Source: Deltaproteobacteria bacterium (GTDB lineage Bacteria; Myxococcota_A; Polyangia; Polyangiales; Houyiibacteriaceae). Taken from it: a stretch of DNA of 45,779 nucleotides. Within the stretch, counting starts at the first letter, position 1. The number at the start of each line of letters is the position of its first letter. The stretch is from positions 1-45,779 of the forward strand of contig JAFDAJ010000017.1 of assembly GCA_019313915.1 (NCBI GenBank). The letters run 5' to 3'. Under the pieces are notes generated by a model that was given only the letters and a program-made list of their open reading frames with translations, ran no database searches and was not told where the DNA came from. Both the position numbers and the translations under genes were made by a program. This document shows, piece by piece, positions 159-19,725 of this stretch.

Positions 159-346
159 GGGGCACGGCGGAACGCGATGCGGGGACCCAGCGGCGTAGCG
201 AGTGACAATCTGCAAGACAGCAACCACCGCAGATTGGGCGCGAGCGCCGAGGGGAGGCTTGCGTGGCCTCAGGCCCCCAGCCCCTCCGGCCACCTTTGCA
301 AGCCGACCCGTCCGCAGGGTCCCCGCATCGCGTTCCGCCGTGCCCC
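159..346 (+). mobile_element. MITE-like 188-bp element, copy 1, perfect 30-bp terminal inverted repeats
   Basis: Bases 159-188 (starting GGGGCACGGCGG) are the exact reverse complement of 317-346 (ending CCGCCGTGCCCC). A second 188-bp copy lies at 17142-17329 on the opposite strand, about 94% identical by eye (11 differences). Internal hairpins are 206-213 with 229-236, and 258-268 with 288-302. There is no transposase or credible gene inside, so it would be non-autonomous if mobile. Similarity to copy 2 continues outward on the left (CGTATGGAG) but not on the right, so the true ends are uncertain. It abuts the stop codon of the lipoprotein gene ending at 355, so it could also end or protect transcripts. 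A structured RNA is an alternative. The repeat is certain; mobility is inferred. Confidence 0.8.
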
Positions 347-16293: not shown

Positions 16294-16325
16294 CTCAATT
16301 CACCGACACCCACTGAATCAACCCT

Positions 16326-16347
16326 TTGAAAAAGGGGACTGACCCCT
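16326..16347 (+). repeat. REP-like short palindrome, copy a
   Basis: TTGAAAAAGGGGACTG at 16326-16341 is identical to the reverse complement of 17359-17374. Bases 16333-16337 and 16343-16347 form an AGGGG/CCCCT stem with a 5-base loop. It lies between the sigma-factor terminator and the CBS gene. With its inverted partner it brackets the CBS gene and copy 2 of the 188-bp element. The sequence style resembles extragenic palindromes spread by REP-associated tyrosine transposases, but no such gene is present here. Confidence 0.7.
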
Positions 16348-16417
16348 CTTGTTGACGCTGGCGCCGCCACACTTGATGGGCGCTCTCATCCCGCATACTC
16401 TCGCTCTAGGGATGCCG

Positions 16418-17128
16418 ATGGGTTCGAAGGCTCCGTATTACGAGTTCGAGATTCGCGTCCGTCAGACGCTGACGGCGGATGGGAGCACCTCCTCGTACTC
16501 CACGGTCTACTGCCCACCGCAGATGCGCACCGTGCGGGTCAACGAGTGTGTCGAATGCGAGGAGTACATCGGGCTGTCTTTCGACCGCGAGGAGCGAAGT
16601 GGGCTACTGCATTGCTACGAGAGCAACGCGCCAACGCCACGGCAGTCCCTTAGGCGTCTGCTACAGGCAGGAGAACGCGAAGGGTTCTTGCGGAAGCTTC
16701 ACCAGCGCGCCGATTGCACGCCGGTGTCACGCATCATGAGCCTCAATGTGCAATGCGTAACCGAAGACGTGAGCCTGCCCGCGTTAGCGAGTTGCTTGCT
16801 CGATGGCGGTTACAGCGGTGCTCCGGTGGTCGATGGCGAGGGCACGCCCGTGGGGGTCGTGTCCAAGACAGACCTGCTCCGGCATGGCGTGACGCCGGAT
16901 GATCGAGTGAGAGACATCATGACTTCGATGTCGTTCACACTGCACGAGGACCAGACAGTCTCGAACGCTTCGGCCTTGATGGCGTACGAGGGAATCCATC
17001 GGCTTCCTGTCGTCGACGCAGCGGGAAAGGTCGTCGGACTGTTGTCGTCGCTGGACATCTTGCACTGGTTGGCCTGCAAAACAGGCAACGCCGTCCCAGC
17101 CCCACGCTCCCGCAGAAATCGCAACTGA
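16418..17128 (+). CDS. Zinc-ribbon-like plus CBS-pair protein
   Basis: The 236-residue cytoplasmic protein has a Cys-bearing N-terminal half (VYCPP..., NECVECEEYIGL..., GLLHCYES), probably a metal site. Two CBS domains follow (residues about 115-225): VSRIMSLNVQCVTEDVSL..., GVVSKTDLLRHG, then VRDIMTSMSFTLHEDQTV..., IHRLPVVDAAGKVVGLLSS. CBS pairs bind adenine nucleotides and act as energy or ligand sensors; no effector domain is attached, so it probably regulates a partner protein. ATG 16418 is best placed behind TAGGG; ATG 16412 is also possible. The gene lies between inverted REP-like repeats with the 188-bp element 13 bases after its stop, so the whole block may have moved or recombined as a unit. 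Confidence 0.87.
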   Translation: MGSKAPYYEFEIRVRQTLTADGSTSSYSTVYCPPQMRTVRVNECVECEEYIGLSFDREERSGLLHCYESNAPTPRQSLRRLLQAGEREGFLRKLHQRADCTPVSRIMSLNVQCVTEDVSLPALASCLLDGGYSGAPVVDGEGTPVGVVSKTDLLRHGVTPDDRVRDIMTSMSFTLHEDQTVSNASALMAYEGIHRLPVVDAAGKVVGLLSSLDILHWLACKTGNAVPAPRSRRNRN

Positions 17129-17141
17129 CGCACCGGAGATC

Positions 17142-17329
17142 GGGGCACGGCGGAACACGACACGGGGACCCTGCGGACGGGTCGGCTTGCAAAGGTGGCC
17201 GGAGGGGCTTGGAGCCTGAGGCCACGCAAGCCTCGCCTCGGCGCTCGCGCCCAATCGGCGGTGCCTGCTGTCTTGCCGATTGTCACTCGCTACGCCGCTG
17301 GGTCCCCGCATCGCGCTCCGCCGTGCCCC
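17142..17329 (-). mobile_element. MITE-like 188-bp element, copy 2
   Basis: This is the same length as copy 1 (159-346) and runs in the opposite orientation. The termini 17142-17171 and 17300-17329 pair at 26 of 30 positions. The internal stem 17252-17259/17275-17282 (CAATCGGC with GCCGATTG) corresponds to CAATCTGC/GCAGATTG in copy 1, so both sides of one base pair changed together. Seven differences lie in the 128-base interior and four in the termini. It begins 13 bases after the CBS stop. No gene is inside. Confidence 0.8.
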
Positions 17330-17349
17330 TCCATACGTCGCCATCTACG

Positions 17350-17374
17350 AAAAGGGCACAGTCCCCTTTTTCAA
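17350..17374 (+). repeat. REP-like short palindrome, copy b (inverted), possible bidirectional terminator
   Basis: The segment forms a stem of AAAAGGG with CCCTTTT around a 7-base loop and ends in a T5 run (17367-17371), as an intrinsic terminator would. Bases 17359-17374 are the exact reverse complement of 16326-16341. It lies between the convergent CBS and oligopeptidase B genes and could stop transcripts from either. Confidence 0.65.
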
Positions 17375-17432
17375 TGGGGTTAATTCTGCGCACGTCCCAC
17401 AGGTCGCCCCGCCGTACATAGACATCTACGGA

Positions 17433-17551
17433 GGAGAACGGCTCGGGATGGGCAGCACAGCGATTGGGCCGGCGCTTAGTCGTATGTCGACTTGAGGAGC
17501 CGTGGCGACGGGGCGCCCGATCGCGAGCACGCCCGTCGCGAGCCGTTCTCC
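17433..17551. repeat. 119-bp imperfect palindrome
   Basis: Arms 17433-17453 and 17531-17551 pair over 21 positions with two mismatches; the outer 13 (GGAGAACGGCTCG) are perfect. After symmetric 6-base bulges, 17460-17469 pairs with 17515-17524 (one T/G position). The 45-base loop holds a further stem AGTCG/CGACT at 17478-17482/17488-17492. It sits 59 bases past the stop of the oligopeptidase B gene. It may be a second short mobile element type or a large terminator. I see no second copy in the window. Confidence 0.7.
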
Positions 17552-17610: not shown

Positions 17611-19725
17611 TTATTGAAGTTGCGTCAGGATGAATGCGTAATCGAGTGCCGTTTCCTTCAAGTAATCGTATCGTCCGGAGGCTCCGCCGTGGCCCGCGTC
17701 CATGTTGATCTTGAAGAGCAGGAGGTTCTCGTCGGTCTTGTGGGCTCGGAGCTTTGCTACGTACTTTGCCGGCTCCCAGTACATCACCTGACTGTCGTTG
17801 AGCGAAGTGCGGACCAGTATTGTTGGGTAGGGATGAGCCTCGATGTTGGTGTATGGGCAGTACGCCTTGATGCGAAAATAAGCATCGCGGTCGTTCGGGT
17901 TTCCCCACTCTTCGTACTCTCCGACCGTAAGCGGGAGGGTGTCGTCAAGCATCGTGTTGAGGACGTCGACGAATGGGACGAGCGAGACGACGGCGCCGAA
18001 GAGGTCGGGGCGCAGGTTGCTGACCGCGCCCATCAGCAGACCGCCCGCACTGCCGCCCTGAATGGCCAGGCGTTTGCTGGATGTGTACTGGTTCGCGACC
18101 AGGTGCTCCGCGACGGTGATGAAGTCCGTGAAGGTGTTGATCTTGTTCTCCATCCGGCCCTGATCGTGCCACGGTTTGCCAAGCTCGCCTCCGCCACGAA
18201 TGTGCGCAACTGCGTAGATCAAGCCGCGATCGAGCAAGCTCACGCGCGCGTGCGAGAAACCCGTCGGGTACGGATAGCCATACGAGCCGTACCCGACGAG
18301 TAACATTGGCGCGGAGCCATCCCTGGGTGTGCCCTTCTTGTAGACCACTGACACGGGAACTCGGGTCCCATCCTGCGCCGTCGCCCAGAGGCGCTCCGAT
18401 TGGTACTCGCCGGGGTCGTAACCACCAAGCACCTCGACCTGCTTGACCAAGCTGCTCACCTTCGACCGAACATCATAGTCGAACACCGAGTCCGGCGTCG
18501 TCAGGGACTCGTACCGATAGCGATAGGCCGCCGCAGAGAACTCTTCGTTGTCACCCGGGTAGAGCGCGTACACCGGCTCATCGATCGCCACTCGATGTGA
18601 ATCGTCGCCCGCAAACTGCGAGACCCGAATGTGCGGAAGACCCGTCTCTCTTTCGAGCAGCACATAGAAACCCTCGAACACGTCCAAGCTTTCGAGCATC
18701 ACCGCGTCACGATGTGCGACGAGCTCTTGCCAGGACGCGGGGCCGGGGTCATCGACCGGTGCCCGGACGATACGAAAATTGCGGCCGCGGTCGTTGGTGC
18801 GGATCAAGAACTCCTCGCCTCGGTGCGCAACGTCGTACTCGTGGTCTTGTCTGCGCTCGGCCACCAATCGCCATGTGCCCGCCGGCTTCGACGCCGGCAG
18901 GAATCCGACTTCGCTGGTCGTGTGGCTGAACGATCCCCGAAAGACGTACTCCCCACTTCGCGAGCGCCACACCGCCACCCGGAAGCGCTCGTCCTCCTCC
19001 TGGTAGATCAGCGCATCCTCTGAGGTCGTGCCGAGTCGGTGCCGTAGGATCTGGTGCGGCCGCTTGGTGTCGTCATCTACGGTGTAAAACAGCGTCTCGC
19101 TGTCGCTTGCCCAGGCCGCCGACTGCACCTTTTCCATTCGCTCGGCAAGCACATCTCCGGACCGAAGGTCTTTGATCTGAAGCGTGTAGTCGCGGAAGCC
19201 TGTCTCATCGAGAGAGAACGCGAGATAGCGGCCATCGGGCGATACCTCGTAGACCCCGAGACCAAGAAACGGCCGGCCTTCGGCGAGCGCATTCATGTCG
19301 AGCAGGACTCGCTCGGTGCTAGCCTTGCCTGGCTCACGCCGACAGTAGCGTCGGTATTGCTTCCCCTCTTCGGTACGGTGGTAGTACTCGAACGCGCCCT
19401 TGCGGTACGGCGCGCTCTGGTCGGTTTCCTTAATGCGCTCGACGATCTCGTCGTACAGCGTTTTCTGAAGGTCCGCCGTGGGCGCCATATGCTCCTCGGC
19501 GTACGCGTTCTCCGCCTCGAGATACCTGGTGACTTCAGGTGCTCCCTTTTCCCGAAGCCAGAAGTAGTCGTCGGCGCGCTTGTCGCCGTGAAGGGTGACG
19601 GGATGAGAGTGCGTACGCGCGACGGGAGGCGGCATGAGGGAGGGGTGGGGTTCGGCAGGGGGTTTGGGGGTGGCGGTGCAGCTTGTCAGTTGCAGCGCAG
19701 CGAAGACAAGAAAGGCCTGGACCAT
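17611..19725 (-). CDS. ptrB: Oligopeptidase B (S9A serine peptidase), lipoprotein form
   Basis: The 704-residue protein cleaves short peptides after basic residues by family. Catalytic residues are Ser559 in QGGSAGGLLMG, Asp644 in TSLNDSQV and His679 in AGHGGASGR; their spacing (85 and 35) equals that of E. coli oligopeptidase B. The N-terminal beta-propeller covers about residues 80-420. Unlike the cytoplasmic E. coli enzyme, this one starts MVQAFLVFAALQLTSC, a lipoprotein leader with LTSC lipobox, so it is probably attached to an envelope membrane. It lies 67 bases downstream of dacB on the same strand; both act on envelope substrates but no functional link is shown. Confidence 0.93.
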   Translation of the reverse strand: MVQAFLVFAALQLTSCTATPKPPAEPHPSLMPPPVARTHSHPVTLHGDKRADDYFWLREKGAPEVTRYLEAENAYAEEHMAPTADLQKTLYDEIVERIKETDQSAPYRKGAFEYYHRTEEGKQYRRYCRREPGKASTERVLLDMNALAEGRPFLGLGVYEVSPDGRYLAFSLDETGFRDYTLQIKDLRSGDVLAERMEKVQSAAWASDSETLFYTVDDDTKRPHQILRHRLGTTSEDALIYQEEDERFRVAVWRSRSGEYVFRGSFSHTTSEVGFLPASKPAGTWRLVAERRQDHEYDVAHRGEEFLIRTNDRGRNFRIVRAPVDDPGPASWQELVAHRDAVMLESLDVFEGFYVLLERETGLPHIRVSQFAGDDSHRVAIDEPVYALYPGDNEEFSAAAYRYRYESLTTPDSVFDYDVRSKVSSLVKQVEVLGGYDPGEYQSERLWATAQDGTRVPVSVVYKKGTPRDGSAPMLLVGYGSYGYPYPTGFSHARVSLLDRGLIYAVAHIRGGGELGKPWHDQGRMENKINTFTDFITVAEHLVANQYTSSKRLAIQGGSAGGLLMGAVSNLRPDLFGAVVSLVPFVDVLNTMLDDTLPLTVGEYEEWGNPNDRDAYFRIKAYCPYTNIEAHPYPTILVRTSLNDSQVMYWEPAKYVAKLRAHKTDENLLLFKINMDAGHGGASGRYDYLKETALDYAFILTQLQ

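Follow-up and report, generated by a model that had tools for sequence, protein, structure and literature searches.

The 188-bp palindrome at positions 159 to 346 of the window, the 45,779-nucleotide stretch of a deltaproteobacterial contig analysed here, belongs to a dispersed family of repeats (family A) in which a branched single-strand fold is kept by one strand, the one running from the tail to the right end. On balance, the comparison of its copies favors a non-autonomous mobile palindromic repeat that resembles the REP/REPIN repeats, is much larger and branched, and would move in trans by means of a putative enzyme. No earlier description of the element was found in the part of the open-access literature that was covered.

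All parts of copy 1 are given on the plus strand. The left arm of the outer stem (159 to 188) is perfect in this copy, being the exact reverse complement of the right arm (317 to 346), which constitutes the right end and points toward a gene. Between the arms lie a first inner hairpin with a conserved loop (206 to 236, CAATCTGC..GCAGATTG) and a second with a conserved one-sided bulge (256 to 304, GGCTTGCGTGGCC..GGCCAC-CTTT-GCAAGCC). Copy 2 occupies positions 17142 to 17329 on the minus strand. The perfect 30-bp arms of the original prediction and its second copy of equal length and opposite orientation are both confirmed, with exactly 11 mismatches between the copies. Only on one side does their similarity continue beyond the palindrome, for 8 bp, whereas on the other side it fades; these 8 bp, the left tail CGTATGGA, lie outside the stem at 151 to 158, are read on the minus strand at 17330 to 17337 in copy 2, and are partly conserved across many copies. 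Copy 1 folds at −134.3 kcal/mol, compared with −83.8 kcal/mol for shuffled sequences (sd 4.8; z = −10.5). This value, together with 10 full-length copies and remnants in the same genome, places the palindrome far beyond chance. A coding function was rejected: the frames that run across the element are mechanical, and none matches a Pfam family.

Each copy in the window adjoins the end of a gene. The right end of copy 1 abuts the stop codon (355 to 357) of a gene on the minus strand (355 to 921) whose stop position is kept in relatives. Copy 2 begins 13 bases behind the end of a CBS-domain gene (16349 to 17128, plus strand), as predicted, while the 9 bases given for copy 1 were counted as 8. 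The convergent partner of the CBS-domain gene encodes a prolyl oligopeptidase (17611 to 19725, minus strand), and the gap between the two is occupied by copy 2, a hairpin of a second family, B (AAAAGGGCACAGTCCCCTTTTTC, 17350 to 17378, assigned to no strand), which adjoins copy 2, and a 119-bp element of a third family, C (17433 to 17551, plus strand), whose left end points toward copy 2 and whose right end points toward the next convergent gene.

The evidence for a conserved fold comes from an alignment of 74 copies. The consensus contains 57 pairs arranged as a long outer stem, the conserved-loop hairpin and the hairpin with the conserved one-sided bulge, and 33 of these pairs show double changes. 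The covariation score of 0.315 was equaled by no shuffled alignment (0.121 in shuffles), and 98.1% of cells pair, against 88.1% in column shuffles and 38–45% when the partners are slid. The outer arms vary from copy to copy (for example GGGGCACGGCGGAAC, GGGGCGCGGAAAAAACGCG, GGGGCTTGGCGGAAC and GGGGCGCGGGGCGCCGCG), and each is matched by its own complement; in genomes G020, G046 and G041 the arm sequences are unrelated and the plan of the core is the same. The sequence of the arms is thus not conserved but varies by compensation, whereas the branched core is conserved. Wobble cells are strongly one-sided, with 337 G-T against 13 A-C, or 263 G-T once a single invariant U-G pair of the consensus is excluded. 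The consensus fold has an energy of −87.1 kcal/mol, whereas the reverse complement of the same alignment reaches only −44.0 kcal/mol. The compensatory changes, the one-sided wobble and the strand-dependent energy together show that a single strand is kept in this form, with an outer stem of about 30 bp and two inner hairpins. On these data, that strand may be RNA or single-stranded DNA. The element resembles the structured non-coding RNAs of Rfam in its covarying multi-hairpin fold on one strand, but differs from them in lacking a match near the gathering score. The best Rfam score, 25.2 bits against a threshold of 197, came from a generic long-hairpin miRNA model, and a known RNA family was set aside as its identity, such generic matches being all that Rfam returned.

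The family is genus-wide, with diverged homologues in a few other genera of the same order. The original prediction proposed a search for many copies with shared boundaries, and its own genome (4.41 Mb, 448 contigs) yielded 11 matches; it holds 10 full-length copies at 84–100% identity, as well as several right-end or palindromic remnants. Core matches occur in 18 of the 19 genomes of the genus; G009 has none, G015, G016 and G018 have one each and the others have 3 to 41. These counts are lower bounds, since many copies lie at contig ends. Outside the genus, a class-wide sample of 289 genomes gave only five matching genomes, all from the same order and with weaker matches, and a phylum sample of 377 genomes added no further one. 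Matching public contigs are mostly from uncultured Myxococcales, including SG8_38. Draft contigs of relatives often start or stop inside the element (G006:C22, G012:C281, G013:C16/C17, G001:C12 and others), and it therefore seems to break short-read assemblies. Three matches to viral contigs have spacings of 56–68 bases, compared with about 45 in the genus copies, and are probably due to chance; carriage by phage was accordingly rejected.

The predicted preference for the 3' ends of genes was borne out and proved strongly polar. The count took open frames of 100 codons or more that read toward the end of the element and terminate within 16 nt of it. Such a stop lies next to the right end in 59 of 127 copies, next to the left end in 3 of 94, and next to 2 of 208 shifted positions. 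Convergent genes flank 41 of the 62 copies for which both neighbors could be called; the calls used a simple codon score on flanks of 0.5–1.5 kb, and the stem ends of a few copies were placed by rules applied by hand, so single distances may be off. The same polarity of the right end toward gene ends is seen in most of the diverged homologues outside the genus. Since the right end faces a gene that reads toward it, the folded strand is, by these gene calls, antisense to the gene whose stop codon it abuts.

Orthologous gaps hold a copy in some genomes and lack it in others, and copies cluster by genome. Between two convergent stop codons, G005 and G006 carry an element where G011 has an empty gap of 12 nt, providing the empty orthologous site that the original prediction had called for, although precise loss could also explain the G011 gap because other species carry elements there. 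At another site the element lies in opposite orientations in G005 and G002, and G006 retains only degenerate remains. The site of copy 2 holds no element in G004 and G014, and in G012 it holds a copy of another subfamily that adjoins the right end of an older copy. Many copies and an empty site were thus found, rather than two isolated copies lacking empty sites and shared boundaries. The same gene carries an element in two to four species in 28 site groups. Copies that share a site, however, do not resemble each other more closely (0.767) than do pairs drawn at random from the two genomes concerned (0.768), and the nearest neighbor of a copy lies within its own genome in 69 of 125 cases, against 11.6 expected by shuffling. 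Simple vertical inheritance of copies is contradicted by these unlike copies at shared sites. The pattern of turnover fits repeated re-insertion; gene conversion at inherited sites could also produce unlike copies.

The elements also form parts of larger repeat mosaics. Partners within 600 nt on the left are divergent in 39 of 94 copies and in the same direction in 11, while remnants on the right share the direction of the copy in 36 of 127 and are divergent in one. Left partners mostly point away and right remnants share direction, so the right ends of the units point outward. In outward pairs the partner is a second A element, an A remnant or a member of the sibling family C. Newer copies adjoin the right-end remnants of older ones, and nesting is seen. 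The right end is precise; the modules on the left, which include family C, hairpin B, module X and hexamer arrays, are variable.

These neighboring repeats have features of their own. Family C is a palindromic repeat (GGAGAACGGCTCG..CGAGCCGTTCTCC) of 118–119 bp in most copies, with a left tail resembling that of A; it often stands tail to tail with the 188-bp element and also occurs at loci L009, L058, L073 and L077. The family B hairpin (AAAAGGGGACTGTCCCCTTTT), found in the window at 16322 to 16350 and 17350 to 17378, is terminator-like on both strands. Module X (L375, 957 to 1127) is about 170 bp long and occurs as a dispersed repeat in G002, G005, G006, G011 and G013, either alone or, in the G005/G006 group, directly to the left of the element. 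Degenerate hexamer arrays (CACTGACGCTGACACTG, CAGTGCCAGTGC) lie between genes beside several copies (81 to 148 in the window; the right end of L027).

A comparison with the known extragenic palindromes of bacteria places the element close to REP, BIME and REPIN sequences. These are many-copy palindromes that lie mostly behind genes, in gaps flanked by convergent or tandem genes, and commonly form inverted pairs and mosaics; they have been hypothesized to move as single-stranded hairpins (PMC3733652; PMC3116915). The element is likewise extragenic, multicopy and located behind genes, often in inverted pairs and mosaics. REPs, however, are simple hairpins of 20–40 bp that carry an unpaired tag, either GTAG or CGTC, and RAYT genes are flanked by REPs of the GTAG type (PMC3733652). 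The element, in contrast, is 188 nt long and branched, with an outer stem and two covarying inner hairpins, and it was not found beside RAYT genes. A search for a REP tag (GTAG, GGAG or CGTC) found that the stem foot in most genus copies runs from TATGGA into GGGG, reading GGAG across the foot; other subfamilies have CCATA or TCATAA, and the G020 copies have CAGTAGG before the stem. The element works like a REP/REPIN sequence but is not classed as one, because it is larger and was seen beside none of the RAYT-type loci examined. Some RAYT genes are flanked instead by TIR repeats, long inverted repeats of moderately abundant families unrelated to the GTAG repeats (PMC3733652). The element shares their long inverted repeats and moderate abundance, yet none of the Y1_Tnp loci examined carries it.

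This absence bears on the enzyme that might move it. Of the 13 genomes that hold 11 or more copies, 11 have Y1_Tnp (RAYT-type) genes above the cut-off, compared with 1 of the 6 that hold 5 or fewer (p = 0.0095, with no correction for kinship), and G010 and G002, with 38 and 29 copies, have no strong match. A RAYT as linked owner of the element was rejected, as none of 12 Y1_Tnp loci examined in the genus contains a copy; the one palindrome-flanked locus carries family B. There, at locus L117 of G013, two family B copies (at about 1194 and 1925) surround the Y1_Tnp gene, and family B may be the REP of this gene. For the 188-bp element, an enzyme acting in trans would recognize the strand in its folded state, single-stranded DNA being its most likely form, and an HUH enzyme such as Y1/RAYT would be the first candidate. 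Single units or inverted pairs would be moved into short intergenic gaps, mostly behind stop codons, presumably because insertions are poorly tolerated in coding and promoter DNA. Insertion of later units into older ones would then leave right-end remnants stacked next to the gene.

A selected RNA element is the main rival to this mobile repeat, and an unlikely one. Here the folded strand would be transcribed, either within the mRNA of the convergent neighbor, forming its 3' part, or as a small RNA, and would serve as a terminator, insulator or stabilizer at inherited sites whose copies are homogenized by gene conversion. The strong covariation on one strand and the invariant U-G pair speak for it, as do the genes that carry the element in several species and the gene-end polarity that persists in diverged homologues. 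Its antisense orientation, however, means that the fold would not be the abutting gene's own 3' UTR, and the variation in copy number from 0 to 41 among species of one genus, the empty and inverted sites, and the remnants and nesting all argue against it. On the conserved loops and the U-G pair, an RNA function could be equally possible for the element, and insulation of convergent transcripts or protection of mRNA 3' ends may be a by-product of a mobile repeat.

Two further explanations involve other kinds of mobility. The original prediction offered a MITE or a large structured palindrome; the covarying fold upholds the palindrome, and the classical MITE, derived by deletion from a DDE insertion sequence whose transposase would act on the terminal inverted repeats to move it, is improbable. 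Like prokaryotic MITEs such as RUP, NEMIS, Bcr1, ERIC and Nezha (listed in PMC3733652), the element falls in the 70–300 bp range, has inverted ends and no coding capacity, and is present in many intergenic copies. Target-site duplication, however, is no more frequent than chance (k = 7, 3 observed and 2.6 expected; k = 8, 1 and 0.7), and the interior is conserved rather than the terminal sequence, whose arms vary with compensation. The element is not classed as a classical MITE because it lacks both target duplications and conserved ends. The predicted matching transposase did not turn up either: no autonomous element or transposase sharing the ends was found, and the element's own genome, a fragmented draft in which an autonomous partner could be missed, showed nothing longer with those ends. 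More improbable still is an RNA-templated, SINE-like element, in which RNA of the folded strand would be reverse-transcribed from a nick behind the stop codon, fixing the right end and leaving the left side variable. The precise right end, the variable left modules and the RNA-like wobble bias agree with it, but A has a sharp left end of its own, and neither the inverted pairs nor the unit inverted at a single site is predicted by it.

An open question is how small palindromic repeats spread in bacteria and whether they are selfish DNA hairpins or RNA structures of use to the cell. In this family the covariation is deep, the choice of strand is clear, the position relative to gene ends is polar and turnover can be seen from one related species to the next, and the DNA and RNA readings are therefore separable by experiment. 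A tentative and somewhat doubtful extension is that it represents a previously undescribed class of mobile element in bacteria. The moving form would be a single strand of DNA or RNA, branched and about 190 nt long, and recognition would depend on its shape and conserved loops, not on terminal sequence; the element would repeatedly re-enter the gaps behind genes, where it may also insulate convergent genes. If the element is mobile, it would widen the REP/REPIN kind from hairpins of 20–40 nt to a large branched fold, and would point to a further mobilizing enzyme in Polyangiales-type myxobacteria.
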